Translations under genes and position numbers: made by a program
Shown: positions 21,149-64,000 of the stretch, in pieces
How positions within the stretch are numbered: position 1 is the stretch's first letter
How the letters are laid out: every line of letters begins with the position of its first letter
Notes under the pieces: model-generated
What the model was told of the DNA's origin: nothing
Databases searched by the model: none
The model's input: the letters and a program-made list of their open reading frames with translations, nothing else
NCBI GenBank assembly: GCA_030374765.1
Contig: JARGXX010000013.1
Coordinates: forward strand, 930,001-994,000
Source: Agarophyton chilense
Lineage: Eukaryota > Rhodophyta > Florideophyceae > Gracilariales > Gracilariaceae
Direction of reading: 5' to 3'
Length of the DNA stretch: 64,000 nucleotides

Positions 21149-22047
21149 ATGTCGCCGATTACCCGTGGTTCCAGGACTGGATCGAACCGTCAAGCGGATT
21201 CAGTGCCCCCGGCCCCGCCTAGGTCGAGGAGCTCAATTCCCGAAGATCGGAACGATTCCGGTATCGATCCGGACACTCGGAGAGCACCCTCAGTGGTTTC
21301 CGGTCCTCTAGTGGTCGTGGCTGTGGGCCCAGCTCCAGTGGTGGAGACCCCCTCAGCAGCACCCCGAAGTCGGGCCGACCCTGAATTACAGCGCCTGGAG
21401 ACTCGAATCGATATCGCCAACGCGGCTCACGTCGAGCTCCTTCAGGAGGTTACTATCCTCCGCCGCAAGGTGGAGAACGCCCAGGTGCGGGGAGTCGCCG
21501 ATGACCTTCGTACTTTGAGGAGGGATGTGAACTCCCTTTTGGAAAGCTTTGGTACCCCTGGGGTCTTTATCCAAGAGTACCGGAGCCTCGTGGAGGAACA
21601 CCGCGTGCAAGCGGAACGCTTCCGAGCTCGGCTGGACACCCTCGAGGCCATTATCCGTATGGACGGAGACACAGAAGCCTCGAAGGATAAACCCGACGTC
21701 TCGGAAGACGAAGAACACCGCTCCGCTAAACGGGACCGCCGCAAGTCCAAGAAGAGGGTTCACCTCCAAGAGGATTTATCGGATCCTGATCCCAATCGCT
21801 CGTCATCGAGTTCGTCCTCCGAATCTTCGGATAGTGAAGATGGACGCCGGTCATCCCGGGCGACTCGGTCGAAGGCTACTTACACCTCTCAAGGGGCAAT
21901 CCGTACGCGGAAGAAGGGTAGGAAACACCTTGGATTAAGGGAGCTGAAGCCGACGAATCCTCTCTATCGGAAGCTGCTATCGTACCGCTATTACCGGTTG
22001 GATAACCCTTCGGGAGATCGAACATCCCACGGAATGGGTAACCTCTG
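21149..22047 (+). pseudogene. gag of copy B, part before the transposon insertion
   Basis: The N-terminal gag begins MSPITRGSRTGSNRQ. It has a predicted coiled coil (LQRLETRIDIANAAHVELLQ and following), then a serine, acidic and lysine-rich linker. It is cut by the left end of the 18 kb DNA transposon; gag sequence resumes at 40309. Confidence 0.7.
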
Positions 22048-22064
22048 TGTTCTCGGAATGCTAG
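22048..22064 (+). repeat. Left terminal inverted repeat of the 18 kb transposon
   Basis: TGTTCTCGGAATGCTAG, exact reverse complement of 40292-40308. The base outside each end (G at left, C at right) would extend the match to 18 bp, but is better read as part of the CTG target duplication. Confidence 0.8.
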
Positions 22065-22139
22065 ATAAGTGTGCTAGATAGCTAGTTTTGTAAATAAAAA
22101 GCCAAAAAATCTAAGAATTTTGCAGATTGCGCTAGTTCT
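22065..22139. repeat. Left sub-terminal CTAG motifs
   Basis: GCTAG recurs at 22073-22077, 22081-22085 (GCTAGTTTT) and 22131-22135 (GCTAGTTCT), repeating the inner end of the terminal repeat. It is a candidate transposase-binding array, matched by similar motifs at the right end. Confidence 0.5.
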
Positions 22140-22297
22140 GCACTTGAAAAAAAAAAATTTTTGGAAATAAGAACTCCATGCATCTTAGTGTTTTGACCAC
22201 TTAATGCAGTTTAATCTGCATTTGCAGTTTACTGGTCACTTTTGACCGCTCTAGGTGGAGATCCATACCAAGGCAGTCGTCAGTACCTTCTACCTCA

Positions 22298-22729
22298 TTA
22301 CTGGCCCTTTTGCTTACTAGGCTCCAGGGTTCTACCGGGAGGGTATTTGAGGTTGAAGATGTCCACCACCGCATTCTCAACCTCGTCCACCTCCCCACTG
22401 CTCAAGTTCTTCACACTCGGCTGCCCCACCACACACACATTCCCACCCTTCTTCTCCACATCCTTACCAACCCTCCTCTTCTTCATCCGACTCTCTCCAA
22501 CTCCTCCCCCTTTCCATTTCTCTCTCCCCTTCTTCATCCCAGCCGGCTCCCCGCGTCTCCCTGGCGTCACTGGCGACCCTTTCGCTCTCCCCCTCTCCTC
22601 TCCCACCTCCTTCAACACCTTCCGCGCACCCCAAATCTCCCCCACCCCTTCCATGTGCACTTCCAACACCTTCACACGCCTCTTCAGTTCCTCATTCGCC
22701 CTCCACAGCTTCCCCATCTCCAGCTCCAT
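22298..22729 (-). CDS. Short coiled-coil protein of the 18 kb transposon
   Basis: 143 aa from an ATG in good context (CCCCATGGAG). The N-terminus is a heptad-patterned helix (ELEMGKLWRANEELKRRVKVLEVHM). A basic, glycine-rich middle follows, and then a C-terminal stretch VDEVENAVVDIFNLKYPPG. No family recognised. The minus strand is purine-rich throughout, the same strand composition as the other minus-strand genes of this transposon, which favours coding use on this strand over the proline and serine-rich plus-strand frame across it. It could be a small DNA-binding or adaptor protein for transposition; that is a guess. Confidence 0.4.
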   Translation of the reverse strand: MELEMGKLWRANEELKRRVKVLEVHMEGVGEIWGARKVLKEVGEERGRAKGSPVTPGRRGEPAGMKKGREKWKGGGVGESRMKKRRVGKDVEKKGGNVCVVGQPSVKNLSSGEVDEVENAVVDIFNLKYPPGRTLEPSKQKGQ

Positions 22730-23335
22730 GGGGATCCGCTCGACCTCGCCAACGCCCGCGAAAGCTATCGACAAGAGCCACCGCAAGCGCACTCACCTTA
22801 GTGCGGCCAGTAGTACTCGCAGCCTCCCACACAGCACCCCCCCTCGAAAATCCTCTCGCCCACCTCCGGCATTTTATCTCCTTTTTTTGACCCGCTTTTC
22901 GCGCGCGCTCGCCCAATTTCAGTACCCTCGTACACCCCTGCATCTACGCTCCGGATGCCCTTCACCCCCACTAATGGCTCACTCACACACTCCCATCCAT
23001 ATTCCTACACCTTCTATCATGTTCAGCGCTCCCTCACTACTCCCAATTTCATAGCCTTCTCATTTATAATAAATCACACTCATTCGTAATACAAACCGCC
23101 GATTACTCATAAGCCCTCTTTCCCGTTATGACTTCCATAACAACACACACTCCTACACTTTTAACACAATAAACACCATTCAATATCATAAATCTAACCT
23201 CCTTCCCAAAAACCCCTAACACCCATTCCTCCACAACCATACTCCTTCTCTATTTAATCACATCTCCACACTCGCCACCCCCACCACTTCTTCAATTCCA
23301 AGCACACCGCACTCCAAACACCTTTCGCAATCAAC
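22730..23335. other. Spacer between divergent cargo genes
   Basis: Pyrimidine-rich on the plus strand, becoming AT-rich after 23050. A TATTTAAT stretch near 23250 lies about 85 bp before the ATG of the reductase-like gene and is a candidate TATA element. No other gene is visible. Confidence 0.4.
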
Positions 23336-24073
23336 ATGACCGACTCTCTCACTGCCATCCCTTGCACCTCCGACCCAGCCGTTATTGTCGGCAGAGGCCG
23401 AATCGGCACTTTGCTTCGCAACAACGGCACCCCACAAGATGCTTTTCTCTCAACTCAATAATTCATCTCCGCGCAATACATTCCGGACGGCCCCATTTTC
23501 TCCTGCGGCAGAAATCATTCACTCGAAGACGTCATTCAATTCTGCCCTTCCTCCCGCAGAGAGGATCTGGTCTTCCTTCAGAACGGAAACATTCTCCCTC
23601 TTCTTTCAACCTATGGGCTCCAAAACTGCACCAAAGCCGTTCTCTTCCTCGCCGTCTCCTCCCTTAACGCACCCCCCGAGGACGGTTTCACCCTCCTCAG
23701 TCCCCATGGTCTCACAACTGCCACCGGCAAATGGGCTCCCGCACTCTCCAATCGCCTCAGTACCACAGGCCTCACTTGTCATGTCGTCGACCAGCCCTCC
23801 TTCTCTAAAGCTTACTACGAAAAACTCGTATGGATATCAGCTTTTAATCTCGTCGGCTCCTCTTATGGCTTTATCACAATGCACGAAGTTGCAGTACAAC
23901 ACCGCACAGTCGTTTCAACCATAATGAAAGAGCTCCTCGCCATCGTCACATCCGAAACAGGAATCGCCTACAATACAACAGAAACACTCCAAAAACTTCT
24001 GGCCCACGGAAAAACACTTACACAGTTCCCCACCTCGTTCTCAGACTTTGAGTTCCGGAACGTCTACTTCTAA
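23336..24073 (+). pseudogene. Ketopantoate-reductase-like NAD(P) protein with one internal stop
   Basis: A continuous 245-codon frame from ATG 23336, interrupted only by an in-frame TAA at 23459-23461 (codon 42). The N-terminus has a dinucleotide-binding loop (VIVGRGRIGTLL). Later blocks REDLVFLQNGN, GLTTATGKWAPAL and YEKLVWISAFNLVG match a family of ketopantoate-reductase-like proteins of plants, algae and cyanobacteria whose substrate is uncertain. The EKL lysine corresponds to a conserved position of PanE enzymes. Since recognisable family sequence lies on both sides, the TAA is inside the gene, not a gene boundary. It looks like a captured host metabolic gene. A poly(A) signal follows 110 nt after the stop. 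Decay, an assembly error or read-through would all explain the TAA. Confidence 0.65.
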
Positions 24074-24183
24074 AACGTTTCTAACGCCCAAAAATCCATT
24101 GGAAACCGTGACCCCGCCCCTTTCCATACCAACTTCTTGAACGTCCTCCTCAATGGGTAGTACTTCATTCATATACCCCTTCC

Positions 24184-24189
24184 AATAAA
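24184..24189 (+). terminator. Poly(A) signal of the reductase-like gene
   Basis: AATAAA on the plus strand, 110 nt after the stop codon of the reductase-like frame. Confidence 0.5.
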
Positions 24190-24575
24190 AACAAGTCCTC
24201 CTTTCTAAAGCATATGTCCATCTCCTTCGCTGCCTCGATAAAGACTGCTATCCGCACGACACCACGTCAGAATATATGAAACGATATTAAGAATTGCTTC
24301 GTACATCACAAATCATCACTACAACCACTCTTCATAAATCTTCCAACTTTGCAATTAAGTCTGTAGCAAATAACCGCTCCTACAGCCTATCAAAGGTTTT
24401 CATTCATAACAACTATTCATACTCCACGACAGAGATACGGCAACAACCTAAGAACTACTTTGATAACTACATATATATATCCACCGATGACCACCCTACT
24501 TCATTGCGCTCAACATACTGTATCCAGTCCCTCACAAATACCTTTCTACACAACACTCTCCTCTCCTTCTCAAGC

Positions 24576-24917
24576 ATGCAGCGCTACGAAGCACGTCTTT
24601 CCCTACCCCCTGGTTCTTCTGTCTAATGCTCAGCAGCTGTGGATATTATTCCACAAGGAACGGTTATCACGATCGACGAAGTCCTTCAAATCAAACTTCC
24701 AACCACCCAGAATGTAGTCGAAGTCAGAGGGTTCCAGAATCATATCACCGAAAAGCTCATGGACGAGATTCGTGACATTTGTAAGACCACCAGGAGGCTC
24801 CCCACTCGCAACTCCCTACAGCAGCAAGATACTCTGAAACAACTGTTCAAAGAACGGTATCATATCGTTACCTATGTGCAGCATACAAGGAAGAGTAGCA
24901 AACCGGAACGCCTTTAA
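24576..24917 (+). pseudogene. Small unknown protein with one internal stop
   Basis: A 113-codon frame from ATG 24576, with a single in-frame TAA at 24624-24626 after MQRYEARLSLPPGSSV. The downstream part reads like real protein (VDIIPQGTVITIDEVLQIKLP, VVEVRGFQNHITEKLMDEI). No family recognised. The first AAs after the TAA would lack an ATG start, so the stop is either a mutation or marks a missed exon boundary. It sits between the reductase-like gene and the membrane-protein gene on the same strand. Confidence 0.35.
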
Positions 24918-24933
24918 TAAGATATTCAGTTAG

Positions 24934-25761
24934 CAAACACTCTTCACATCGACCTTAACGTTCACAATCACACTAACTACACTCTTCGGAGTTATAGACC
25001 CAGCTCTGCAATATACGCTTCCATTCAGATTCAACTCTCTCCTTCGGTTCATTCTCATAACGCTATTGAGGTGTTCTATCCAAAGCCTGCTACACATTCT
25101 CATAATCGAAGGAGGCGTATAATGTATAAACGCGTTATACGGGTCTCTACAAACTACGCCGTTCAATCCAAACCAGCGATATACCTGGAAGAAACGAGCC
25201 TTGCTGGAATTCGGGGCTCTTCTCCTTACTCTACTCATCCCCCTCAACGCCATACTTTTCCTCGTTCACCGCTTCATTCCAGTCAGCGGTACCCTTTCTT
25301 CAGACGTTAAGACAAATTGTATCGCCTTCTCTACAGGAGGGGCCGCAGTTGGCGCTTTGGCATATCTTCTCCAGCTTGTTTCTATATCCTTCTTTCCAGA
25401 GTCCTATCTTAACACAAAGATCACAATGACCCCGGAACCACGGAGAACCTCTTTTATGAACCTCGTGCTTGGCGCCCTCTCCCACTCCTTTCAACAGGCT
25501 TTATTCATATCCAGTCCGGATGTAACCTTCCGACTACTCGGTTTGAGGCTGTCGGCATGCACTTTCGCTGCACTCTCTTCAACCGCCTTCTCCACCTCTC
25601 GCATTGAGGGACCTGGTGTTCCAATACTGCTTGGTAACACTGTGGATGTCGTAATCTTGATATCTTCGACAGTTGTCATTCACTATGAGAAAGTGAAAGC
25701 AAGTGCTACTCTCACGCGTTTCAATCCAGTTGTTCAGGAGTTTCTACTGAAAGACGACTGA
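24934..25761 (+). pseudogene. Multi-pass membrane protein, start unclear
   Basis: Open frame of 276 codons with an in-frame TAA at 25120-25122 and no ATG in its first half, so the true start, perhaps in an upstream exon, is unknown. At least five hydrophobic segments are visible: around FTITLTTLFGVI, LLRFILITLL, FGALLLTLLIPLNAILFL, GGAAVGALAYLLQLVSIS, and VDVVILISSTVVIHY at the end. No family recognised. Nothing links it functionally to the DNA-modification genes beyond being inside the same element. Confidence 0.4.
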
Positions 25762-25813
25762 TCACTATTACAAGAAAAGAGGACTACTCCACATATTACC
25801 TCAAATTGTACTC

Positions 25814-25819
25814 TTTATT
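25814..25819 (-). terminator. Poly(A) signal of the oxygenase-like gene
   Basis: AATAAA on the minus strand, 24 nt after the stop of the oxygenase-like frame. Confidence 0.55.
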
Positions 25820-25842
25820 GTTCAATAGGTAACAGATACTAT

Positions 25843-27591
25843 CTAGTCGTCGTCGTCATCCATTATCATACCGCCGTCTTCGTAGTCTCCATCTGTGTTA
25901 GCCGAGTTGAGAACCATCCCAGGTTCATCATCCTCTTTCTCATACTCCTCTTTCTCATACTCCTCTTCCCCACTTTCAACAACTTCCATTTTATAATCTT
26001 CATCCAACTCCTCATCTTCATCTACCTGGACGTCTTCATCATCACCCTTGTTGGAATCATCTTCTTCGAACTTAGGCCGAAATGCTGGTTGCCTATGCAC
26101 TGCGTCCGGTAGCTTGTACCCATCCGGTACCAAGTACATGTGATACCTCATGCAAACTTCCTTAACCAATGCATCCTCGTATCCAGCTCCAGCATGAAAC
26201 ACATCTCCTCTTCCAATAAAAATGGAGTACGGCGGAATCTTGAACTTCCTCACTACCATCGTCCGAGACAGCCGCTTCAAGCTCCTGTTGTCGGGCACGT
26301 ACATGTTATGTGACCTCTCACAAACCCAAAGCATAAACGAACTCGCTCCCGACGCCATCATGAAGAACCCTGGAACCTCTCCGACGTTCTTCTCGTCATC
26401 GGTCAGTCCTCGAAAGTCCGTATGTAACACCTGCCTTTGACAGCCCTCCACCGTACACAGCACTCGCCCCCCTGTTTCAGGGGCATACATCCTCTTTTTC
26501 CCCGACCGGTTGTTGCACAACCGAAGAGCGGCCGCAATCTGTCCAAACCTCGCATCCAACAATGCCCTTTTCCTCACCATTAAAACGTTGTTCTCTTCCC
26601 CCTCCACAGAATCCACAATCCCCACCTTCGTCGTAATGTACCGCCCAACTCCCTTCATTCTATCTCCAGCGTCTCTCTCCTCACCAGCGTTGATTATAGG
26701 GTCCCATTTCTTTCTATTCCCTTCAATCGTCAAGTCCGAGTGGTTCAAGAAATCCGTCTGAAAAAACTCTAGCAGAGTCCCAGTCACATCCCCATCGAAG
26801 TTTACCCCCCTCTTCTTCGCCTCATCCGCCATCCCCTCGTCCGTGGCAAACTCTTCCAGCACTTAAAATCCTTTCTCCATCAGCTCACTTCTCTTGGTCG
26901 CGAAGTACTCGCGGGCCAAGTCATCCCTCTCCATTGCTGCCATCCATATCGCCTGCTCTTCATTCACAGGGTGGTTCTTCGTCGGTAGAATCACACCAAG
27001 AACCGGTTCTTTCGTGGAACCCAGTTCCTTGTGCCTGTTATGAGCAGCACGCCAATAAACCGCATGTTACACACTTTTCAAGTCTTCTACCCTCAAGCAC
27101 TCCGCCCTGTGCTTGTTTTGTAGGTAAATCATCTGCATCCCGAGGTGCTGATGCTTCACTTCATTTTCACCCGCCGGCCACTCGCTCGGAAGTGCATTCA
27201 CCAAGTACACCCACGACATACCCGACCCCCCCGCATACGGTCCCGCCCTCTTCAGCCCCTTCGGAACACCCTCCGGATTATTGTCTTCGAATCCACGCAT
27301 TTGCACACCTTCCTCCTCTTCGTCCCCTACAAATGCACCCTGCCCCCCGTCATCATCCAGTTCATCCTCACTCGATGAGAAAACATTGAGTACATGTTCC
27401 TTCAAGAAGCGCTTCAGCTCTTTCCTGCTCATCTTCTTGAACACATCCACCACGTCAGCCGGTATTTGAGCCGCAGATGTGCCCACCGTCTTTCTCCTCT
27501 TCCTCTTCCGCTTTAAAGGCTGTTCATACTCGCGTTCATCATCACTAATGACCACAGCCTTTCTCTTCCCCTTTCTCTGTCTAGGTTCCAT
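25843..27591 (-). pseudogene. 2OG-Fe(II)-oxygenase-like protein with acidic tail, two internal stops
   Basis: One minus-strand frame of 583 codons from ATG 27589-27591, broken by TAA codons at 27067-27069 and 26863-26865. The N-terminus is basic and nuclear-looking (RQRKGKRKAVVIS, KRKRKRRKTVG), then acidic. The C-terminal 339 codons are open and hold a double-stranded-beta-helix signature: LHTDF supplies an H-x-D pair, and about 75 residues on VFHAGAGYED and VCMRYHMYL supply the distal histidine and an arginine. This HTDF...HAGAxY...RxHxY pattern is that of 2-oxoglutarate/iron oxygenase-like proteins of algae and oomycetes. Such folds include TET/JBP and AlkB enzymes that oxidise methylated bases. 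A very acidic tail ends the protein. An eraser role opposite the neighbouring methyltransferase is inference. A cupin-like, non-enzymatic protein is the alternative. Confidence 0.55.
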
Positions 27592-27881
27592 CACCCTCTC
27601 ACCCGCAGCATCCAGCCCGCGCTCAGTACCTTTTCTAGTTTGTGTGATGCGTCTGGGAACCACGGTTTCCTAGTGGGTTACAGACTCCCCAGCAATAGAC
27701 GAAGGAACATTCACAGAAGGTGGCACCTCCACCCATCCTTCTCCGCACTTGGGGACGCCAGACTCACTTTCAGACCGCCTTCAATCCGCCTTTGTGCGAT
27801 TTTCATCCTCTTCGGCACCAACCCCGGCCACAACCGCTTCGGACCACTGAGCTCCATCTTCGCCGTTTGCATGCAAAGGTA

Positions 27882-29543
27882 CTACCTTAAAGACACCTCG
27901 TTCTTTCCCATCACAATTGTGCTGTCTAGAACCTTCCCCGCCGTTAGACCCTTCTCCTTTCCCGCCCTTTCACATAGTTGGAACATTCCTATGGCGCATT
28001 GGAAGAACTGCTTTTGCGTCTCCTGGAAACGTCCCATATTCCCCGTAGAACCCATCCTCACCCTCACATGTAGCTGCAAACAACGGATTTCGAAACGGAA
28101 TATTTCGTCTTCGAGTCCTAACAACAAGTGACTCGACACATGCGCAAGCGTTAGCACTGGACCCTCCTTGCATACGTTCTCAAAGAACTCCAGGAGACCT
28201 TCGCTCCTGACGAATTTCAACCCAAGAGTCGCATAGCGATTCAAGTGGCGCAAGCTGTAGATTCCTATAGCTTCGCTCGTCTTCAGCGCCCCAGCTATCC
28301 GTGTCGGAGTAAGGTCAGCCAACTTGGTTCTCTTATCGTCAATCAAGTTGCAAATGAAGGACACTGTCGATTGAACCTTGTCGGCGACACTCATCTTCAA
28401 CACATTTGAACTCATTTCATTGAGTACATTACCAAGACCGAGCACTTCGTTCAGCGATAAAGGCTTCCGGTCCTTTCGTCCCCAAAGAACGACATCAAGA
28501 GACCGCACAATTTCCAACCACTTTCTCCCTTCAGAGAGATCATTCTTCAGATCTCGCAGAACCAGGACGCGGTGATGACCGTCAATGAGTATGACAGGCA
28601 CCACTACCCTCCCATTGTGAACAATTTCACTGAAATCTAATTCCATTCCTCCGACGATGGCAACACCAATCGACCCTGCCGACGCAAGCCAGCCAAACGT
28701 TTTGCACTTTGCCATCGTCGCCGCCTTGTGTTCCGCATTTACACTTCTGACAGTCTTCTCGGGGATTTGTATGTCATCTATGTCCACAATCAAGCGGCAC
28801 TGGTCATAGTCTGAAGCAGAGATCTTCTTTTCCACGAGAGTCCTATCCACTTCCTGCGAAGGAACGGCATCGCCCTCATCGAATAACTCCAACTCGGGAC
28901 CGGTGTGCGAATCCCCGCGTACATTCACCGCTGACCCCACCTCCACAACATCTTCATCAGAATCATCCACTATGGTCACCCTCTTTTTCGGCTTGACGGG
29001 TTGCTTCATGGCCGGCGGCACTGTTGTTGGCTGTGCCCTCTTCCCCCTCAAAGGCGTAGCAGACTCCTTCGAGGCGGTCGCGCTTTTGGGAGTCACCGGC
29101 CGAGAAGGCCCTGGAGTCAGCACAGAGGAGACGCGTGTCATCATCGAGGTATCCCATGCGTATATACCTGCCGACACCATATCCTTCAGCAACTCCGGCG
29201 GCTCCTCTGCTCCCTTGAAGGAGTACGGATACTTGGAGTTGATCCCCTCCTTAATTTCAGTCCTCCAGATGGCCACCAAGTCCTCTCCCGGCTTCGCAGA
29301 ATCGCGCAACGAATGGCCATGCATCGCTCTGCAAAGCGCCTTCCCGGCCGCTCCACTGCCCCCAACACATCTCAACTCCGCAGTGCCAACCATAGTACCC
29401 TTCTTCTTCCCTGTCCCATCCGCCAGGAAAAACGCCACCCTATCCCCACCAGCCAGATTGTTTCCCGATGTAGCTTTTCGCGGAGTGGCGCGTGGAGTAC
29501 CCCGCGGAGTACCCCTCGCTTTCGCTTTGCCTCGAGTCATCAT
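27882..29543 (-). CDS. ParB-like protein of the 18 kb transposon
   Basis: 553 aa, uninterrupted, from ATG 29541-29543. The first 240 residues hold a basic start (RGTPRGTPRATPRK), a globular block (DLVAIWRTEIKEGI) and a low-complexity linker with an acidic IVDDSDEDVVEV stretch. Residues about 250-335 match the ParB N-terminal (ParB/sulfiredoxin-like) domain: IQIPEKTVRSVNAEHKAATM, FGWLASAG, then VPVILIDGHHRVLVLRDL with the GHHR motif at about 322-325. In bacteria and phages this domain, a CTPase/nuclease fold, acts in partition or sits beside DNA methyltransferases. The C-terminal 220 residues are helical and unassigned. It is transcribed away from the methyltransferase, with the palindrome array between them, so these palindromes are its most obvious candidate target. 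Confidence 0.7.
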   Translation of the reverse strand: MMTRGKAKARGTPRGTPRATPRKATSGNNLAGGDRVAFFLADGTGKKKGTMVGTAELRCVGGSGAAGKALCRAMHGHSLRDSAKPGEDLVAIWRTEIKEGINSKYPYSFKGAEEPPELLKDMVSAGIYAWDTSMMTRVSSVLTPGPSRPVTPKSATASKESATPLRGKRAQPTTVPPAMKQPVKPKKRVTIVDDSDEDVVEVGSAVNVRGDSHTGPELELFDEGDAVPSQEVDRTLVEKKISASDYDQCRLIVDIDDIQIPEKTVRSVNAEHKAATMAKCKTFGWLASAGSIGVAIVGGMELDFSEIVHNGRVVVPVILIDGHHRVLVLRDLKNDLSEGRKWLEIVRSLDVVLWGRKDRKPLSLNEVLGLGNVLNEMSSNVLKMSVADKVQSTVSFICNLIDDKRTKLADLTPTRIAGALKTSEAIGIYSLRHLNRYATLGLKFVRSEGLLEFFENVCKEGPVLTLAHVSSHLLLGLEDEIFRFEIRCLQLHVRVRMGSTGNMGRFQETQKQFFQCAIGMFQLCERAGKEKGLTAGKVLDSTIVMGKNEVSLR

Positions 29544-29597
29544 TTGAATCGGATCGTAGTCGGTCGAGGTTGCAAATGGTCGCAGAGCGCTTTGAGC

Positions 29598-29605
29598 CTT
29601 TTATG
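29598..29605 (-). promoter_or_regulatory. TATA-like element of the ParB-like gene
   Basis: CATAAAAG on the minus strand, about 55 bp upstream of the ATG. The palindromes begin about 230 bp further upstream. Confidence 0.4.
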
Positions 29606-29832
29606 GTATACAGACTAAGACGAATTAGATCGAGCTCCTTTGGTGGCGACTATCCGGAACACTCCCGAGAGCAATTCGTTGCAATCAGCCTGAACTACGT
29701 CCGCTTAGTTTCAACCTGAGCTACGTCCGCTTAGTTTCAAACTCAAAAAACTCCTTGTCTCTTTCCATCACAAACACGCCTATTGGCTTGGTAGGCGATA
29801 CAAGAAAATAAAATTAAAAAACTAAAAATATC

Positions 29833-30164
29833 CTGACGGCCGACAGAGGTGCACTCCGACTTCATCGGGGCTCCCGATGAAGTCAGAGCGCACCTCTGTC
29901 GGCCGACATAATACATATAATTTTGTAATTTTTAGGACGCCCAGGTGTACACGGAGCATTCTGTCGGCCGACAGAGGTGCGCTCCGACTTCATCGGGGGT
30001 CCCGATGAAGTCCCCGCGCACCTCTGTCGGCCGACATAATACATATAATTTTGTAATTTTTGGAACGCTCAGGTGTACACGGTGCACTCTGTCGGCCGAC
30101 AGAGGTGCGCGGGGACTTCATCGGGACCCCCGATGAAGTCGGAGCGCACCTCTGACGGCCGACA
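29833..30164. repeat. Array of three 75-76 bp palindromes
   Basis: Units at 29833-29908, 29962-30036 and 30090-30164, each a near-perfect inverted repeat with 37-bp arms and almost no loop. Each arm starts with the 12-bp palindrome TGTCGGCCGACA (one variant has TGACGG), continues AGAGGTGCGC, and ends GACTTCATCGGG at the centre. The two 53-bp spacers are nearly identical to each other (TAATACATATAATTTTG..., then CAGGTGTACACGG), giving a 128-129 bp period. The array fills the gap between the divergent ParB-like and methyltransferase-SET genes. Candidate roles: ParB-type binding or partition site, operator of the divergent promoters, or hairpin-forming origin. A duplicated hairpin RNA source is another option. 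Confidence 0.9.
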
Positions 30165-30337
30165 GAATGCAACCAGGATAGCTGCTAAGTCGTTCCGCAA
30201 CAACCGTTCTTCCGTGCGCGCTCCTCAACCGTACTCACAATCTTTCCATACCCACCCGCACCCACCCACACCCACTGCTCTCTTTCACTCAGGCTCTCGT
30301 GACGACCGCCCGTGAGGTTGTTTGAACATGTACATAA

Positions 30338-33300
30338 ATGGCTCCAGAACCCACGAGAACTTCTTCATCGCCTACGGCAGACACCTTCGAAATGGATAAA
30401 CTGTTTGGTACGGGGGATGAAGTTATCAGGGCGTCTCTGGATTTGCGTGATCGTTACGCATTAACGAGGCCGGAGGAAGATGAGCCGCGAAAAGTGGGGC
30501 ACACTGCATTCATCGATTTCACAATTGCCAATCGCCACATCCTACCGGAGACCGTGAAGTTTTTTTTATACTCTCCTAGGTCCCGACCACACCAATTACA
30601 CAGAACATGAGCTTCGAGTTGTAGAAATGATAGGCTGGAACTGTCAGAATTATTTCTCGGCGAGGTTGCTGGATATAAGGGATGGGGACCCAGATAGGCG
30701 CGTGAGGGACTTTTGGAACGCGTCCGAGGCGGTGGAGTTCAAGGGCATCCCGAAGAATGTCACTTTGACAGAGTTCTTCGAAGGTCTGGATACAACCCGA
30801 AAGAAGGCGAGCAAAAGCCGGGCTCCATTCGCGACCGACTTTCCGACAATGTTCCAGAGGTTGCTGTTCCTCATTTGTATTCAGTCGGTCTCTATTGAGA
30901 AGAAAAGAGTCTCCCGTAAGCGAAGAAAGCGGGACAGAACCTACGATACGCCATTTTCGAAGGTGGCGATTTATGACAAACCAGTAGCTCAGCGTGTGGG
31001 CTTTTGTGTGCAGCTCGTCAATAACGCGTGGGACAGCTTCGCCCAGTATTTGGGATTCCCTGGCGTGGAATTCATGGTTTTGCCCTTTATCCATCTACGA
31101 TATTCTGGTATGCAGTTCCAGGCAATCGGAAACAGAAGAAATGGGTTCTCTCACAAGGACATGGCCGAACGACTCCTTCCTGGTAGAAACCGAACTTTAT
31201 TGGAGGAGGATGTCGTCCCATGGGCGTGGAACCTGCCGGAGTACGTTGACACTCTACTTCGTATGTTGGCCAAAGAGTTTCTCGCTGACCTGCACAAAGT
31301 GGTGGTGAATGAGCAGCTTTACTCTATATCAGCTCCGGAAAGATGGGACGTTCTAAAACCGTTTACATACACTTTGCCTAGAGTGTTTGCGGAGAGATTC
31401 GACTGCTTCTCGAACTCTCTTATCTCTACCATCTCGGAATACATATCGCCACTAAAGCTGCGAGGGAGTGTGGAGGTGGAAGTGGTGGCTGCGACAAAGG
31501 CGGAACCTACTATGGTTATGGAAGAAGACGAGATAGAAGTTGTACCCCCTGAGAAAGATTCGGAGGCTCCGGCGGTGGAGGGTGGAGAGGGAGTGGAGGG
31601 TGGGACCGGGAATGAGGAAGAGAACATGGGTGTTGGTCAGCATTCTTCCACAGCTGGACCAAGGTCGGTCGAATCTGAGTCGGTGGATATTCTGCCGCCT
31701 CACGACCTTACCTCTCTGGATGATATAATGTCTCTCCAAAAGTGCGAGTCGGAGATGGATAAGCACTGTCGAATGTACAATTGTACTTTCGAGAATCTGG
31801 TGGAGATTGACGAAACATTGCGCAGCAATGGGGTCTCTCCGATAGGGAAAGTGCAGTTGGTTCTCATGGACGCTCCGTATAATATACGTGCGAAGAAGAA
31901 CAGGAAAAACAGCTGGTACGACGTTCTTAACCGGCAAGACATGGTGAAGACGGCGAAGCTCATCTCTAAACTTCTGCGTCCGGGAGGGCATTTCGTTATA
32001 TTCTGCGCGATTGAGCAGGTGAACGAATGGAAAGAAGTGTTGGGTCGAATTGGTGCAAAGTATGAGAATGGACAGAAGAGCAGGTCCTTTGTCGTGGACA
32101 AGGTCCAGCTGCACTTCATTCGCTCTCAAGGCAATCCGATGCGTAATCCCGGACGTAGTTCGTGCTCCCTGTTTCCCGGAACAGAGTACGCCATTCATGG
32201 AGTTCGCAGCGGGTTGTCCTACGCCGAACAACATGGCATGGTGAACTATGAGAACTTCAGCTATGTACCATCGCGATATCCGGGTTACCATAGCGTGATT
32301 GACCAAGTGCCTCCCATGTCGAATGGTGAAATACTTCTATGGAGAAGGAAGAATGCCAAAGGAGCAGTTACATTTCAGAAAGTGCGGGCGGAACAGAAGT
32401 CACGCGCTTTGCTGAAGGAGCTCATCAGCAGGTTTTCTCAGCCGGGAGACATAGTGGTGGACCTCTTCGCCGGAACATTTTCAACGGCCATGGCATGCAT
32501 GGAACTGGAAAAGCACCGTCAGTTTCTAGGGTGTGAGCCAGATCCGCAGTGCTTTGCTCATGCGAAGCACGCCGCTACAGTGAAATTTGCGTCATGCATG
32601 CGGAACAACGAGACGGACATTCATATAACGCAAGATGTTCGGAACGCTGTGACTCGAGTGACATGCTTGTTTCCGGACGTCGTCATAAAGCGTTCGAAGT
32701 CCTGGAAAACACCTACCGGATTTCCCGAGCATCAGATGTTTCCACCCCATATCGTGGATTTTCTCTCCTCCATGTGGCAGGATAAGAATATACCGGAGAT
32801 TGGGCGACGGCAGGCGCTGTATGAGTGGCCAAGAAGTTTTCAAGGAAAGATGTCACTGTTGGATTGGAATGCTATTCTGGCAGTGGAGGCGACAGTATGT
32901 GGTTGTCGGATTGCAAAGTCGACGATAAGGCACCCGAATGCTGGAGTTGGTGTGTACAAAACACGCCGGGTGATACAAGGTGAGACTGTTTGTTACTTTT
33001 ACGGAACTTTGGTGTACCATAATCTTTCAAAGCGGAAGGAAGTTCATAAGGCATACGGAGGGGGGCTATTGAAAGCTACTGCTGATCGTTTTCGGCAGTA
33101 CGCGATGGAGATAAGCGTCCGAGGGGAAGTGTTTCACAAGCTACCAGGAAGAATTAGTGGGGTGTCTCTTATTCCGGTGTGGATTGTTTCTGCTCCATTT
33201 TGCTTGGGGGGAACAATTAACGACCCCAAGTATGTGGAAGGGGATAGGGACAGGGATGCGGTTGAAGACGGGTTAATGAGACGCCGAACTGCAAATGTTC

Positions 33301-33470
33301 GGGTCATCAGAACTCCGGGGACGGGGCGGACCCCATTTCAGTTGAGAGACTATAGATTGCTTTCTGTGCAAGCAATTCGAGATATAGAAATAGGAGAGGA
33401 GCTGTTCGCGGATTATGCGACAGAGTATATCTGGAGTATGAATAACACGCCAGTCATAGTAATCGATTAA
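30338..33470 (+). CDS. Beta-class DNA amino-methyltransferase fused to a SET domain
   Basis: About 1,040 codons from ATG 30338, with a +1 offset at an 8-T run (30560-30567) joining the first 75 or so codons to a 947-codon open frame. Numbering in the long frame: an N-terminal 400 residues of unknown fold with an acidic linker; motif IV DAPYN at about 415-419 (the DPPY position); then motif I VDLFAGTFSTAMAC at about 611-624. Motif IV before motif I is the beta-class order of N4-cytosine/N6-adenine DNA methyltransferases of bacteria and phages. The last 180 residues form a SET domain: GVGVYKTRRVIQGETVCYFYG near 773, RTANVRV, then GEELFADYATEY near 923. SET domains methylate protein lysines, usually histones. 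The fusion would mark DNA and chromatin from one polypeptide. The offset may be mutation, an assembly error or frameshifting. Which base is methylated cannot be told. Confidence 0.75.
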
Positions 33471-33794
33471 AAGTGCATCGCTTTTGTTACTTTACTTCAT
33501 TGTAGTGTACCAGATATTGTGGGCTTTTACTATGTTTGTCGCTACATATAACGTCAAAGCGTGACGTAGTACATATGCTAAAGGAAAGTCATGTACACCG
33601 AAGGAGAATACTTTCCCAATATCTAGTGCGTTCGAGCGCATATTTAAAATATCTGAAAAGTTTGGGGGTTTTCTGAGAACACGAAAAGGGTGGAGGTATA
33701 TTTTTGGAAGCAGAATGTTTTGAAGCTTCTCTCCCATTCATCGCATTGCAACGCGTGGAAGACCATACCACGATCGCTCTCTCTCTCTTCAACC
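33471..33794 (+). promoter_or_regulatory. Promoter region of the 884-aa gene
   Basis: AT-rich spacer with TATATTTT at 33697-33704, about 98 bp before the ATG at 33795, a plausible TATA box. No other gene seen. Confidence 0.4.
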
Positions 33795-36449
33795 ATGGCT
33801 CCGAAGCGCAAATCGAGAAGCGAGAACACTAGCGGGCGCGGTACAAAATCACGGCGGCATGGAGGGGATGCGGAGAGCGGAAGGGACAAGGGGCGTAGGC
33901 TCCAGGGCGCGAGTGGAGAGAAGGGAGGCGTGCGCCTGAGAGGTAGATCAAGGCAAGATGGTGGGGAAAGAGAGGCGAGTGGGGGCAAAGGAAAGGCTGT
34001 TCGCGCAAAGGAGACGGTGACGGAGGAGAGTGCGGAGCAAATCACGTCTCCTACGGAGCAAATCACGTCGCCTACGGGAGAGATGGTGTGGAGCGGCGAT
34101 GGAAAACGGGATGGCGTGCGAGGCAACCGCACGCGTGTACCTAGAAGTGGATTGCGGGGGAGGGCGAGCAGAGCTCCAGGGAGGACAAGGAGAGGGGATG
34201 CATCCGAGCGGACTCTAAGTGCTGTACTCACGTCTTCAGCTGATGTGGAGCCGGTAAATCCATGCTCTGCACCTGGAGGAGGTGAAGAGATTCCGAATGA
34301 GAGGACGAAGGGGCGTAAGGAGGGAGAGAGAATGATCGGAGAACGTGGATCCCGCCTCAGAGGTGTTGAAGAAGCAGGGGCATCGTTTACGGGTATGAGG
34401 GAAGAGGACGCTGATGATGAGATACAGAAAGAAAGAATAGAGAGTAGCCGTGGTGGGGAGGGTAGAATAGGTGGACCCAGTAGTGGTATAATCACGGGCG
34501 CAAGAGTCATTGGAGAGAGAACAGAAGGAGAGAGTGTTGGAGTTACCGCGGGGGAACAGGCGGAAAGATGGGAGGGGGCGAACTTGGATTACGTGGAAGA
34601 AAGGAGAGAGCGTGCAAGGGAAAGAATGGGGAGTGTTCGAGTTACAGGAAGAAGAGCGATAGACGAAAGGGAAAGCAAAGAAGTGCATGTGAGTGAGGGG
34701 GGGAGAAGGGGGTTTGCTGGAGGGAGAACACGTGGTTCAGGGGACAAAGGCGATGGAAGAGCAGCAGTTCTTTCTCATCAGGGAGAAGATGTCGAGCGTT
34801 TGCCACCGAGGAGAGGGGTGGGTTTGGAAGTTGAAGGGTTTGAGGTGAACGCAAGGCGAAGAACGCCGGAAGGTATGCGAGTAAGGAGAAACATTGTATT
34901 CACAAGGAATAATGATAACGGGGAGAATGCGAATTTAAATGTCGTGGAGAACGCCGTCTGTATAGTGGAAGATGAAGCAAATGATGATGACATAGGTTTG
35001 TTGCCGCGGTCGATGCTAATTGAGAAGATGAATGTGTTGAAGGGACAAATGGGACGTATGAAGGAAGACAGCTACAGTGTGATGGTGAGTTTGAAAATGA
35101 CCCAAACGGAGCTGGATCGGGCGAGGGAGGAAATGAAGCAGCAGAATGTGCTGATTGAGAGTTTGAGGGAGGCGTTGAAAAGTAGAATCGCTGGGGAAGG
35201 GAGGGGGGAGGGAGGCGTGACGCGGCGACGAAAGTATGACATTGGAGTGCAGGAGTGCTTTTATGGATTTGCACGTCGTGTGTATGATAGGATTCTTCAT
35301 TGTGAAAAACTGGAGGCATCGGAACTTTGCTTCGACACCGAGAATGTGGGTCGAAGCTGGAAGAATAGAAGTGAGGCGGTTGGGGAGAGTAGGGAGGAAA
35401 GTTTGTTTGTGGTGGGAAAGAAGGAAATGGTTCCGAGATGTCCAATTGAGGTTGCATATGAGATGAGACCGTATACGCCGTTGACAGAGGGCGGGAGCCA
35501 TTTGTTGTTGAAGCACGTGGTAGAGACTGAGTTAATGGGAGAGAAATGGGAGTCGATAAGGGAAGCGGGGAGGAGAGAGGAGTGCGTGGAAAATGTAAGT
35601 GCAGATCGGTGCTTGAGACAGAGGATGAAGCAAGCATTGAGCGATGTGGTTGGGGTGCGGAAGCGAGCAGCGCGTGATAAGCTGTTTTCCATGCTTGGAT
35701 ATGATTTGATCGCGAAACGAGCTAAGGTGACTGAAGGGACGGAGCTTTGGGCGGAGTTGAAGAAGCAGATTAAGGAGGCGCAGGAGAAGTTGATGGGGTC
35801 GGGGGAGGATGGGAGAGGTAAGCTGTGTGCGTGGAGAACGAGTGCGATTGAAGATATTACTTATTCTGGATCGAAGGTGTCTGAGAACTTGGAGGACTTT
35901 GGTGAGGCAGATATGTATTTTCGAAATCAGGTGTCATTGAAAGTGTTGGAGGAGTTTATGGGCTACGCGGTAGAGAGTCACAGAAATGGAGAAAGGCAGT
36001 ATGTGGATGGGACGGTGATGCATCTTGCGCGACTTGATGCATGGATTGGATGTGTGGTGACCACGATGGATAAAGACGTTGGGCGGGGAGGCCATAGGCA
36101 ACTTTTGTTCTCGACGCTCTTTGGGAGGTTTCTGCCACTGGCTGTTGAGGACATATTGAGGGTTGCCTGGAACATGGTGAAGGATGAGTATGCTGAGGAG
36201 TTTGAGAATGATGGATTCTGTGGAGGGAATCGTAGAGATGTGAGTGGGAATAAGGAGAGAATCGCGACGGTTGGGCTATGGATACCGTCAAGACAGAAAA
36301 TCTATCTGGCGATAAGGGAGGAGTTTTTCATGGAGATTCTCACGAGAAGACTTGGAGCGGTGTTAGATTGCTATATAGCGTCATGTGGACCAGAAGAACC
36401 ACGGTCCAAGAGCTTAGCGTTGGGGAGTAGGCAAGGAGTGGGAGAGTAA
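33795..36449 (+). CDS. 884-aa protein: disordered basic N-terminus, coiled coil, unknown C-terminal domain
   Basis: Starts MAPKRKSRSENTSGRG at an ATG in strong context (CAACCATGG); the frame is open upstream but without another good start. The first 430 residues are arginine, glycine and glutamate-rich and look disordered. They include a tandem SPTEQIT repeat. A coiled coil follows (MLIEKMNVLKGQMGRMKEDSY, TQTELDRAREEMKQQNVLIE). The final 350 residues look globular (QECFYGFARRVYDRILHCEKL, LDAWIGCVVTTMDKDVG, LLFSTLFGRFLPLAVEDILR). No family recognised. It converges with the transposase gene, whose stop lies only 88 bp beyond. A nuclear partner of transposition or a chromatin-binding protein fits its charge, but that is inference. 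The frame is intact, unlike several neighbours, which suggests it is real. Confidence 0.6.
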   Translation: MAPKRKSRSENTSGRGTKSRRHGGDAESGRDKGRRLQGASGEKGGVRLRGRSRQDGGEREASGGKGKAVRAKETVTEESAEQITSPTEQITSPTGEMVWSGDGKRDGVRGNRTRVPRSGLRGRASRAPGRTRRGDASERTLSAVLTSSADVEPVNPCSAPGGGEEIPNERTKGRKEGERMIGERGSRLRGVEEAGASFTGMREEDADDEIQKERIESSRGGEGRIGGPSSGIITGARVIGERTEGESVGVTAGEQAERWEGANLDYVEERRERARERMGSVRVTGRRAIDERESKEVHVSEGGRRGFAGGRTRGSGDKGDGRAAVLSHQGEDVERLPPRRGVGLEVEGFEVNARRRTPEGMRVRRNIVFTRNNDNGENANLNVVENAVCIVEDEANDDDIGLLPRSMLIEKMNVLKGQMGRMKEDSYSVMVSLKMTQTELDRAREEMKQQNVLIESLREALKSRIAGEGRGEGGVTRRRKYDIGVQECFYGFARRVYDRILHCEKLEASELCFDTENVGRSWKNRSEAVGESREESLFVVGKKEMVPRCPIEVAYEMRPYTPLTEGGSHLLLKHVVETELMGEKWESIREAGRREECVENVSADRCLRQRMKQALSDVVGVRKRAARDKLFSMLGYDLIAKRAKVTEGTELWAELKKQIKEAQEKLMGSGEDGRGKLCAWRTSAIEDITYSGSKVSENLEDFGEADMYFRNQVSLKVLEEFMGYAVESHRNGERQYVDGTVMHLARLDAWIGCVVTTMDKDVGRGGHRQLLFSTLFGRFLPLAVEDILRVAWNMVKDEYAEEFENDGFCGGNRRDVSGNKERIATVGLWIPSRQKIYLAIREEFFMEILTRRLGAVLDCYIASCGPEEPRSKSLALGSRQGVGE

Positions 36450-36528
36450 TAAGGTACGGGGGGTATAAGGGGGTAAGGAGGTGGAGCAAGATGGGGGTCG
36501 GCAATGGAAGAAAAGCAGCGGTGACTAT

Positions 36529-36534
36529 TTTATT
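36529..36534 (-). terminator. Poly(A) signal of the transposase-like gene
   Basis: AATAAA on the minus strand, within ten bases after the TGA at 36538-36540. It supports that TGA as the true end of the gene. Confidence 0.55.
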
Positions 36535-36537
36535 GGA

Positions 36538-39500
36538 TCATGTGCCTTGGGAGGTATTATTATGAGTGCCACCCAGTGGTGGTGTTGTGCCACCAGTGGT
36601 GGTGTTGGAGAAGTAGGGCTTCGCAGTTGGGTCTCGGTAGAATCTGTTGAGGTAAAATCGATGGAAGTGCCAGTGCAATCGAGGGGTGAAAGGGGGTGCG
36701 GGGTAGTTTTGGCGAAGTACATGAACGGGGCCGAGAATGGAAGAGGATGGTACGAGGCCGAACCAGGGGGAGACGTTGTCGGAGTTGGAAGTGTTTGAGA
36801 TAGGAAGGAGGTAAGCGGTGTGGTTTTGTTCGTCGTCTGTTGCCCATCGGAGGCAGATGCAATTGAGAGAGACATCGACTTGATCCTGGGGTGGAACGAG
36901 TTCGAGGAACTGAACGAAGGCGAACTCGTTATGAGTGGAAGGGGAAGAAGGGGTGGTGAAGCGAAGAAGAGAGTTGAGCTTGCAGACCCAGGCGGTGGGA
37001 GTGGGGTTGGAAAAGCTGGAACCGGCAACGAGGATGTGGGAGAACTTTGGGGTTTTAGAGGGACCGAAGGAGGGAGCAGCGAAGATACGTTGAATGAGTG
37101 GGAGTGGGGGATCTTTGACGGCGAGCTCGTTTCGATCGGCGATGTAGTCGTCTAGGGTTGGGGTGAAGCCGCCGACGACGTATGCGGAATTGACGAATGT
37201 GAGACGGGTTTGGCGGAGAGTCGGGGAGTCCTGGTTGAGAGCTAGTGTTTCGAGTGTGAGTGTGACGAAGGAGGGGAGTGCGAGGGTTCCAATCTGTGAG
37301 ATGATGGCGATAGTGTCTGGGGAGAAGAGGTCCTAAAGGGAAGAGATTGTTGAGTGGGGGTTTGCTTGAAGTAATTTGTGAGCGGTGATGAGATCGGAAA
37401 AGGAGGTGTGCTTGCCATCACGGACGAAACCTGGTTTGCGGGCTTGGAAGGGAGGAGGAGGGGCATGGGAGGATGAGGTGACGGAAGGATCAGCGGAGAG
37501 AGAAATCCAATTGTTGACGGCATCGGAGCGTTCGATGGCACGAATGGTTTCGTTGTGCGCGGTGGGTCTGCGCTTGGAGGTTCGGGAGTAATGTGCTTTG
37601 AAGAGGGTATGGGCTTGTTCGAAGATGCCTGCATCGTTGAAGTGGAGACCCTCTAAGCGTCTAATGTCGTCTACGATGTGATCGAGGATGTGGAATTTGA
37701 GGGTGCCAAGGTTGGAGGTATGGTATGGACCGAGAACATCGACAGCTCTGTGCTTGAAGGAATGGATTTGGGAGGCGAGTTTGGCAAGACGAGAAGTGGT
37801 CCATTCGGGGACGGAGTTGTAGCACATGGAGGTGAGGAGGAGGTCTGTGTACTTGGAAAAGACAGTTGTGATGGGAGCGGAATTGGCTTCGTCACAGCAG
37901 CGGTCGAAGAAGGCGCCGATAAAGGGGAAGACCATGTCGAGGGCGCGGTAGTCTTTTGCTTTTAGCATGCCGCGGACGCCGTCAGTTGTGAAGAAGCCGT
38001 TGAGGGACTGCCCGCTTTCGGAAGTAGAGAAGTCGATGTGGAGGCCGGTAGCTGGGGAATGATTTTCGATGGCGGTGAGGATGAAGTTGGAGTGCTTGAG
38101 GATGGAGGTGCGGAAGGAGTGGAAGGAACGGCGGGAGTTTGTGCAGCTGATGGTGGTGAAGAGGTGTTCTGATCTGAGACGTTCGATGGCGGCGAGCTTG
38201 ATGAGTTTGGAAACGCCGAGGTGGAAGTTGTGGAGGGGTTCGAAGGGGAAGATGTTGTATGGAGTGAGGAGGGGGGTGATGTTGAAAAGGGGGTAAGACT
38301 CGAAGAGGGAGGGGTATTTCGCGAGGGAGAGGGAGTGGAGTGCTTGGAGAGCTTGTTCCTTGAAGTTGCGAGAGACTCTTGGCTTGCGGGCGAGGAGAGC
38401 TGCTTCGGAGTCCTTGAGGAGGGAGAAGAGTTTGTTGCGGGCTGCAAGGGTGAGGGGAAGAGATCGAGGGGGATGGGCGTGAGAGTGTTGGTGGAGTTGT
38501 GAGCGAGGGACAGAGCATCTGTGGCAGGGGTGCTGGGGGCGGGTGCCGTGGGAGATGGCGAGAATATCCTTTGCCTCGGGAATGTCTGCGCAGTAGCTGG
38601 CGATGATGTGGTGGCATTGACGAAGAACGCCGTCTGCGTCGCGGAAGGGGAAACCGGGGAGGGCGGAAGAGAAGAGAGGTTGAAGGAGGGAAGAGATGGT
38701 CTGCTGTATGAGTTCCATTTTTGTTTGGCGGGGGATGGAGGAGGAATGAGTGATGATATCTGCATCTGGAGAAGGAGTGAGTGGGGTGAAGGAGGTGGGA
38801 AGATAGCCGAGGAGTGTGAGATTGTCGGAGATGCATTTGCGGCGAAAGGAGTCGGAGAAGTTGAGAAGGGTGATGTGGAGGGGGTAGGAGGTGATGGAAG
38901 AAGATTTGAGAGAGGTAGAGGACTTTTCGGAGTAGATTTGGACGAGGCCGATGAAGGAGTCGATACCGGTGGAGTGAGGGAGATGCCAGACGAAGTTATC
39001 TTTTGTGGACTGCATGATGGCGGTCTTGAGTGCGGGGACGACTTTTGAGCCGAGGGTGGCTGCCATGGGGTGTGCGAAGGCGGGGGAGCCGGAGGCGGAT
39101 GTTTGAGAGATGGGGTGGAAAAAGGTGTTCTTGAAGTATGCGAGGCCGAGCTGTTGTTTGAGGACATGGATTGCGTCTTTCTGGAAGAGGGTTGCGGAGA
39201 AGCTTTTGTGGAGATCGAAGATGGTGGAGGGGGCGAAACCAATAAAACTGATTCTCTGGTGGAAGAGGTCTGCCTGGAGCTCGAGGCATTGCTTTGCGGA
39301 GGAGACTGAGTTCTGGAATGTTGATTCGGAGAAGTGGGGATCATTAAAGAGAGTGATGAGTTCGTCAGCCTTTCGTTGTCCAAGCTTTGAGGCGATGGAG
39401 GAGATGTAGAGGACCATTTTCTCCAGGTGGGGGTTGTCGAGTGGGGGAGTGGAAGGAGGGAGGGGGGAGAGAGCGAGAGAGGAGGGGGAACCGAGAGGGG

Positions 39501-39799
39501 CAGTGGCGACGTGGATGGCGTCCTGGGTGTGGAGGGAGAGAGAGCTGGTCTTGGAGATAGGAGTCATGGTGTGCGAGAGGGACGTTGTCGGAAGGGCGAT
39601 GTGAGGGAGGAGTATGAGTGGGGAGTTGTGAGGTGGACTAGTGGCGTTTTGTGCGGGGGGGGAAGTTGGGTTCATTTCTGCCAGGGGAGAGGAAGCGCTT
39701 GTTGGCGGAGAGGCGATGAGGGCACCTTCTCTGGTGCCGCTGGAGGGCGGGGATTTCTCGGGCGAAGAAGGAGCAACCGTTGAAGCAGCAGGAAGGCAT
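36538..39799 (-). pseudogene. Zinc-finger transposase-like gene (Plavaka/CACTA/KDZ-type candidate)
   Basis: Best read as starting at ATG 39797-39799 in strong context (CCACCATGCC). The first 50 codons give a C2H2/C2HC finger (CCFNGCSFFAREIPALQRHQ, then RRCPH). The main frame follows after a +1 offset at an 8-C run (39655-39662) and stays open for over 770 codons. An in-frame TAG at 37333-37335 interrupts it, but the frame continues 265 codons to a TGA followed at once by AATAAA. Family-like features: AKDILAISHGTRPQHPCHRC (a PCxxC block after a G) and FEPLHNFHLGVSKLIK (a P-x-LH...G block). These are the two landmarks of Plavaka-like transposases. I did not identify the DDE residues. The terminal position next to the right inverted repeat, and the size near 1,090 codons, fit an autonomous transposase now damaged in this copy. 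Confidence 0.5.
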
Positions 39800-40117
39800 G
39801 GTGGGTGGAGGAGAGGTGGTGGGAAAGAAGTTGGTAGGGGGCGTAGACGGAGAGAGAGTATGGCGCACACAGGGCACGTGACAGGGGAGGGCGGTGGAGA
39901 ATAATATAGAATGCAAGGCACGTGAGGTCTGCCAGGTCGGGCTGCGATTCTATTGCCATTGATATGGATGGTACTAAATGTTCAATTTCTATTTTGAGGT
40001 CCATTTTGGAACCGGTTGTTTGTACTAATCTGGCAATCTAGAGCGCACAAAGATTGAATCTGCTCCTGCACCACTTCTCTAATTTTACCTTTAGACTGCG
40101 GCGACAGAAAGATTCAC
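39800..40117. other. Upstream region of the transposase-like gene
   Basis: A TATATTA-like stretch on the minus strand near 39904-39911 lies about 110 bp before the transposase ATG. Otherwise AT-rich, with no gene. Confidence 0.35.
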
Positions 40118-40291
40118 GCTAGTTTTACCTCCATCAAAACTAGAAAAACTGCAGATATGTGCTATTTTTCCTTTCCATACAAACTAGCACTAATGAACGA
40201 ATGAAAATATTTTCGGAAATTAACACCTCCAAATTTGGATAAATTCACGGGTTTTTCGGTCATTTCAATTCGTCCTTTTTTGACCAGTGAA
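40118..40291. repeat. Right sub-terminal CTAG motifs
   Basis: GCTAGTTTT at 40118-40126, AAAACTAGAAAA around 40140-40143, AAACTAGC around 40181-40188, then AACTAGC running into the terminal repeat. They mirror the GCTAGTTTT and GCTAGTTCT motifs of the left end, often in the opposite orientation. Confidence 0.5.
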
Positions 40292-40308
40292 CTAGCATTC
40301 CGAGAACA
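40292..40308 (-). repeat. Right terminal inverted repeat of the 18 kb transposon
   Basis: CTAGCATTCCGAGAACA, exact reverse complement of 22048-22064, followed by CTG, the same three bases that precede the left end. Confidence 0.8.
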
Positions 40309-63480: not shown

Positions 63481-63489
63481 CGGCGGGGA

Positions 63490-63982: not shown

Positions 63983-64000
63983 AAAAACAGCAATGGGATC

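Follow-up and report, generated by a model that had tools for sequence, protein, structure and literature searches.

Does an 18-kb block of genes for putative DNA- and histone-modifying proteins move through a genome as one element, and if so, what could such genes do for it? The question is raised by a 64,000-nucleotide stretch of the Agarophyton chilense assembly GCA_030374765.1 (contig JARGXX010000013.1, positions 930,001 to 994,000), hereafter the window. A sequence-only reading had described the block as a DNA transposon with a methyltransferase-SET fusion among ten coding regions, and had linked it to the KDZ transposons of fungi. We find that it belongs to a recently active, high-copy, autonomous DNA transposon family of the Plavaka superfamily, and we regard both its membership of Plavaka and the co-mobilisation of its cargo as nearly certain. 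The assembly comprises 79.8 Mb in 135 contigs; Plavaka membership and this genome size suggest a mushroom-type basidiomycete as the host. The genome counts given below are lower bounds, as a limited number of candidates was scored in each search. The main features of the element are these:

22040..22041, no strand: target-site duplication AA, left copy (a single AA stands at 9/9 uninterrupted gag loci)
22042..22064, plus strand: left imperfect 23-bp terminal inverted repeat (TIR), starting CCTCT in the window copy and CGTCT in the other 19 of the 20 copies read
25843..29543, minus strand: ParB/Srx-like domain (N-terminal) and putative 2-oxoglutarate (2OG)-Fe(II) oxygenase (C-terminal), from frames in other copies and motifs
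29830..30170, no strand: tandem array of a 128-bp unit with a ~75-bp palindromic stretch, three units (six cores), from a repeat and palindrome scan
30338..33470, plus strand: DNA methyltransferase (MTase; N6_N4_Mtase) fused to SET, from PF01555 and SET-region profiles, start placed by eye
36536..39949, minus strand: Plavaka transposase (PF18759), limits transferred from copy C10 by arithmetic
40292..40314, minus strand: right imperfect 23-bp TIR, from end comparison across copies
40315..40316, no strand: target-site duplication AA, right copy (single AA at uninterrupted gag loci)

A mobile Plavaka element and its limits

The perfect 17-bp inverted repeat first noticed is present at 22048-22064 and 40292-40308, and forms the inner part of the imperfect 23-bp TIR. 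Among 20 copies read at both ends, some of them deletion derivatives, CGTCT opens the left end in 19 and GACG closes the right end in 19. The 2 bp outside the left and right ends are identical in 17 of the 20 (binomial p 3e-18 at 1/16), with dinucleotides that vary among copies (AA, TA, AG, CA, AT, TG, TT, AC); copies C71, C1 and C79b have no matching pair. The insertion lies, as had been read, inside the gag of another element, a long terminal repeat (LTR) retroelement with LTRs at 20006-20921 and 49112-50035. All nine other gag loci fetched are uninterrupted at this point and read ...GGGT-AAGGTCAA... with one AA and no insert. When the window flanks are rejoined on one AA the gag frame is open again, while rejoining on CTG places a stop in that frame. 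Copy flanks, empty sites and gag-frame rejoining thus rule out CTG as a 3-bp target duplication, which the earlier reading had proposed, and from the flank comparison and the empty sites we therefore place the element at 22042-40314 (18,273 bp), with a duplication of 2 bp. As to the host retroelement, its gag flank matches at all 40 scored places (the best 40 of 325 candidates in the genome), and the window holds three LTR-like copies of ~920 bp that are 94-96% identical (20006-20921, 49112-50035 and 59250-60166).

The family placement comes from the transposase, which matches PF18759 at 74.5 bits in the window (cut-off 26.3; E 1e-20) and at 80.8 bits in copy C10. Its frame of 1137-1155 codons is open in C10, C117, C70, C86 and C12; the window gene is split and frameshifted, with an 862-aa open reading frame (ORF) at 37333-39921. 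The C10 protein has a Cys/His cluster at its N-terminus, and C(2)C and H(3-4)H motifs lie between the second D and the last E (CHRC and HILDH/HLLDH in the translations, with residues assigned by eye). What had been called a zinc-finger transposase-like gene does encode a transposase, and judged by its sequence this is a Plavaka transposase, a relative of CACTA/EnSpm. The 23-bp TIR and 2-bp duplication agree with the TIRs and 2-3 bp duplications by which Plavaka is recognised.

The Plavaka transposase and the 2-bp duplication rule out the KDZ (Kyakuja-Dileera-Zisupton) assignment. What KDZ elements with TET/JBP have in common with it is a putative DNA-modifying oxygenase on a DNA transposon of fungi, but their transposase is unrelated, and the transposase here gave no KDZ Pfam match at E <= 1. 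Target duplications are 8 bp long for Zisupton and 7 bp for Kyakuja (Kojima 2025, PMC12730594, cited here and below from parts of its text). The same source places Plavaka in the CMCT clade and describes some Plavaka elements as TET-positive. With the TET-positive PlavakaB of Agaricus bisporus and Gymnopus confluens, the window element shares a Plavaka transposase, 2-bp duplications, an oxygenase-type gene and termini that are similar without being identical (CGTCT..TGACG here, CATCA..TGATG in PlavakaB); it differs from them in having no detectable TET/JBP profile, and in carrying the MTase-SET gene, the ParB-oxygenase gene and the palindrome array (PMC12730594). The PlavakaA subgroup (TGT..ACA termini, 2-bp duplication) was considered and rejected, as TGT..ACA sits 6 bp inside the true ends here.

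Copies of the element are numerous. The left 353 bp match at 96-100% at all 40 scored places (the best 40 of 108 candidates) and the right 350 bp at 97-100% at all 40 (the best 40 of 134). Nine full-length copies, including that in the window (W, C10, C117, C79, C70, C104, C71, C86 and C12), measure 17,913-18,934 bp and are 97.1-99.5% identical in pairs, with a common gene order, a variable array and local insertions and deletions. Several complete copies that share one cargo are what the sequence-only reading had asked for as support, though with 2-bp in place of 3-bp duplications. The window copy ranks with the most diverged of the nine, and in it the frames for transposase, ParB-oxygenase and MTase-SET have all been broken or altered; C10, C117 and C86 retain long open frames for all three. 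Across the genome, at least one of the left end, right end or transposase accompanies 37 of the 48 MTase-SET loci scored (from 222 candidates), and none was found at the remaining 11 among the matches listed. At 30 of the 48 a scored transposase lies in opposite orientation downstream, 29 times at 3.8-4.0 kb and once at 1.5 kb. A divergent scored MTase-SET likewise lies within 4 kb of 26 of the 37 ParB-oxygenase places scored (from 337 candidates), and not of the other 11, among the matches listed. What the copies show for the family is a transposase with TIRs and 2-bp duplications, a high copy number, and a co-mobilised cargo whose domain order is conserved.

Two fusion proteins and the array between them

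The cargo consists chiefly of two divergently encoded fusion proteins. The MTase-SET frame (1036-1043 codons) is open in C10, C117 and C86, and in the window only from 30627 (947 aa); together with the profile matches, these open frames bear out the fusion seen in the earlier reading. The MTase domain matches PF01555 (E 4e-16) and the phage-type DNA methyltransferase phrog_67 (E 3e-22), and 30 phage records, 15 of them listed, matched a relative, P0001, in its MTase region alone. Its catalytic motif is DPPY in C10 and P0001 and DPPF in P0002 and P0003; the window copy departs from the DPPY type. Against PF00856 (cut-off 22.4) the SET part scores 18.5 bits in the window, 20.5 in P0001 and, above the cut-off, 28.5 in P0002, and the SET-region profile matches KMT2C, SETD8 and EZH2. 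A PADLOC search gave general MTase matches for P0002, including one to a MADS-type MTase (E 1e-7), and no match for P0005 or the C10 ParB-oxygenase. The predicted methyl mark is more likely N6-methyladenine (6mA) than N4-methylcytosine (4mC), since the closest relatives with solved structures are MTases of adenine. Profile matches are shared with phage and bacterial N6_N4 DNA MTases (DpnA, MboIIA, CcrM and phrog_67), but those matches name no SET, and here the ParB-like domain and the MTase sit on two separate proteins.

ParB-like and oxygenase-like pieces had been listed as separate proteins because the gene is broken in the window, where it lies in three parts (27882-29543, 27067-27663 and 25843-26862); in C10, C117 and C86 it is one open frame of 1247 codons. 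Modest evidence favours a ParB/sulfiredoxin-like N-terminal domain, the hallmarks of which would be a ParB-N fold and a DGxHR box, and to that modest extent the earlier claim of a ParB-like protein stands. Foldseek with the ParB model gave no match at E <= 0.001 and no ParB among the 50 matches listed, and the window ParB piece matched none of the phage records at E <= 1. The C-terminal part is a putative 2OG-Fe(II) oxygenase. Its motifs HTD, GRGDxFHxGxG and RYHMY are invariant in three diverged proteins and form an HxD...H...R pattern, which we take to be the metal/2OG site of such enzymes. No Pfam profile, Tet_JBP included, matched this part, its structure model (predicted local distance difference test 33) gave no usable fold by the double-stranded beta-helix criterion, and a ParB-oxygenase profile against solved structures returned nothing meaningful. 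A DNA- and histone-modification gene set is present in a multi-copy transposon, as had been proposed, while the suggestion that marks are also erased depends on the HxD...H...R motifs.

Diverged relatives of both fusions, at 31-49% identity, occur in other sequence sets, and both keep their domain order and motifs across this deep divergence. A profile search with A1 found no relatives beyond P0001-P0003 among the ~8,000 scored candidates that had the most words in common, and viral contigs yielded no relatives of either fusion by the patterns used.

Between the two divergent genes sits the palindrome array. Counting as near-perfect a palindrome with 36-bp arms and about 10% mismatch, one unit in the window qualifies and the other two are less regular; in the four of nine copies so examined, the numbers are 1, 1, 4 and 1 (W, C10, C117 and C86). 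With one mismatch allowed, cores number 6 in the window, 12 in C10, 14 in C117, 10 in C79, 12 in C70, 9 in C104, 1 in C71, 11 in C86 and 15 in C12, exceeding the window's count in seven of the eight other full copies. A 20-base half-site (at most two mismatches) occurs 341+328 times genome-wide against 0+0 for the reversed control. Of 100 half-site places listed, 68 have a listed left end at most 10 kb away or a listed MTase-SET gene at most 2.5 kb away, and the other 32 have neither.

What the cargo may do for the transposon

We think it somewhat more likely than not that the cargo serves this autonomous Plavaka transposon as a chromatin toolkit of its own. After insertion, the ParB-like domain, with its helical and possibly helix-turn-helix segment, would recognise the element's own intergenic palindrome array and bring the fused oxygenase there, which may remove or alter methyl marks. 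The divergently transcribed MTase-SET protein would write an amino-methyl mark on DNA (6mA, less likely 4mC), while its SET part would write a lysine-methyl mark on local histones. Together, the two proteins could keep the element's promoters expressed, or label its copies as self, against host silencing; escape from silencing would allow transposase to be made and the family to spread. In this scheme we infer the activity of each domain, the type of mark, the array as a ParB-type target and the anti-silencing or self-marking benefit, and that benefit is our leading reading, at about even odds. A more specific version is tentative, and we give it rather low odds: a ParB-type protein on a parS-like array would deliver a DNA-mark eraser, its partner would be a single-chain dual writer acting on DNA (6mA/4mC) and histones, and the element would set its chromatin state independently of the host.

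That unrelated host genes happen to lie between two coincidental repeats is next to impossible, being refuted by the multiple co-linear copies, the empty sites and the duplications, and we found no point in its favour. It is unlikely that the cargo consists of captured host or foreign genes that are carried along as passengers and do nothing for the transposon. The cargo is indeed decayed in most scored copies, with stops in the matched stretch at 34/48 MTase-SET loci (14/48 have none) and 25/37 ParB-oxygenase places (12/37 have none). The ratios of private nonsynonymous to synonymous changes, summed over the older copies W, C79, C104, C71 and C12, are also near neutral, at 2.2 for ParB-oxygenase (134:61), 2.6 for MTase-SET (101:39) and 2.5 for the transposase (122:49), compared with 2.8, 2.8 and 2.6 expected without selection; individual copies therefore decay after insertion. 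A cargo-less derivative, moreover, has both ends and a TA duplication: this 4.5-kb non-autonomous copy (L055, or C3d; C3:96950-102949) has lost the MTase-SET and ParB-oxygenase genes but still contains a palindrome array and a portion of the transposase. Set against a passenger status are the domain order and motifs that both fusions keep over deep divergence, and the three copies in which all three genes are open.

The MTase-SET and ParB-oxygenase proteins might instead silence other copies or competitors and so damp copy number, an arrangement that high copy number would favour; bacterial-type amino-MTases can serve eukaryotic silencing, as N4CMT of bdelloid rotifers does (PMC8885841, in part). 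The many recent, near-identical copies argue against effective damping, and we consider such self-limitation or superinfection control quite improbable. We hold it very unlikely that the MTase and oxygenase build a phage-like hypermodified base that protects the element against nucleases or helps the transposase to recognise it. The MTase does match phage and prokaryotic DNA MTases, and phages combine MTases, oxygenases and glycosyltransferases for base modification (PMC12730594), but no glycosyltransferase or other finishing enzyme was found among the ORFs scanned, and the SET domain would be left unexplained.

For the chromatin toolkit that we favour, the closest functional precedent is VANC of Arabidopsis transposons, an element-encoded anti-silencing protein whose targets are often tandem repeats; the comparison is drawn on how it works (PMC5735166, in part). 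N4CMT is likewise a bacterial-type amino-MTase coupled to histone marks in a eukaryote, but it is fused to a chromodomain, reading histones and writing DNA, and helps the host to silence transposons, whereas here DNA writing and putative histone writing would be joined on a transposon (PMC8885841, in part). HarbingerS and MuDR elements of Phytophthora are also DNA transposons that encode a SET histone methyltransferase; they belong to other transposase superfamilies, and a SET-DNA MTase fusion is not mentioned in the parts of PMC12730594 cited. SET genes in oomycete transposons are named there; the word 'ParB' is absent from its main text, and the parts cited make no mention of MTase-SET, ParB-oxygenase or a palindrome array. 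We found no description of MTase-SET or ParB in Plavaka in the open-access literature searched, a scope that excludes the paper which founded Plavaka (Iyer et al. 2014). Transposons with one epigenetic enzyme (TET/JBP or SET) were already known; here there is a whole set, and we found neither of its two domain fusions, DNA methyltransferase-SET and ParB-type-putative oxygenase, in the literature searched. A review from 2026 on DNA methylation in fungi calls transposon-encoded TET/JBP uncharacterised, and puts 6mA in Dikarya at 0.05-0.21%, hard to tell from background (PMC13297926, in part). With so many almost identical copies in a single assembly, both intact and cargo-less, it would be possible to test directly whether a transposon marks chromatin of its own, and also whether 6mA in mushrooms originates from mobile elements.

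Copy histories, accessory ORFs and other repeats

Copies C10 and C117 look young because their gene frames have almost no private changes: none in ParB-oxygenase and MTase-SET, and in the transposase one in C10 and none in C117; their left parts have 15 and 8, respectively. The cargo of C86 is close to the majority sequence, with 5 private changes in ParB-oxygenase and none in MTase-SET, but its transposase has 40 and its left part 51 (L041-L042), possibly through recombination between subfamilies. Private C-to-T changes of the window copy fall at CpG in 30 of 118 cases, against 22 at CpT, 26 at CpA and 38 at CpC, and no context resembling repeat-induced point mutation was seen among them; the observed-to-expected CpG ratio is mildly low in the element (0.84, against 0.99-1.07 around it). 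A second derivative, L056, is 6.8 kb long and has a non-matching duplication; no array match was found in it.

Besides the genes above, the element holds three further ORFs:

23336..24073, plus strand: accessory ORF remnant A, limits placed by eye; a 300-codon open frame in C86
24930..25761, plus strand: accessory ORF B, hydrophobic and membrane-like by eye; a 275-codon open frame in other copies
33690..36449, plus strand: 919-aa ORF with a basic, low-complexity N-terminus by eye; no family

About six genes are plausible in all, so that the ten coding regions first counted look too many. For ORF A, the NCBIfam profile NF004887 (2-dehydropantoate 2-reductase) gave a very weak match of 18 bits (E 0.0013), where the cut-off is 360. 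ORF A adjoins ORF B, which matched no Pfam family and has a very weak NCBIfam transporter likeness far below the cut-off (NF011571, E 0.0031). The 919-aa ORF corresponds to a single 923-codon frame in C12 and to two overlapping frames in C10. Elsewhere in the window, dispersed repeats of 84-93% identity, some of them inverted, pair 17355-19344 with 61484-63504 and 13444-13945 with 63500-64000, and a trio of the same identity class lies at 11798-12246, 51472-51921 and 60305-60748.
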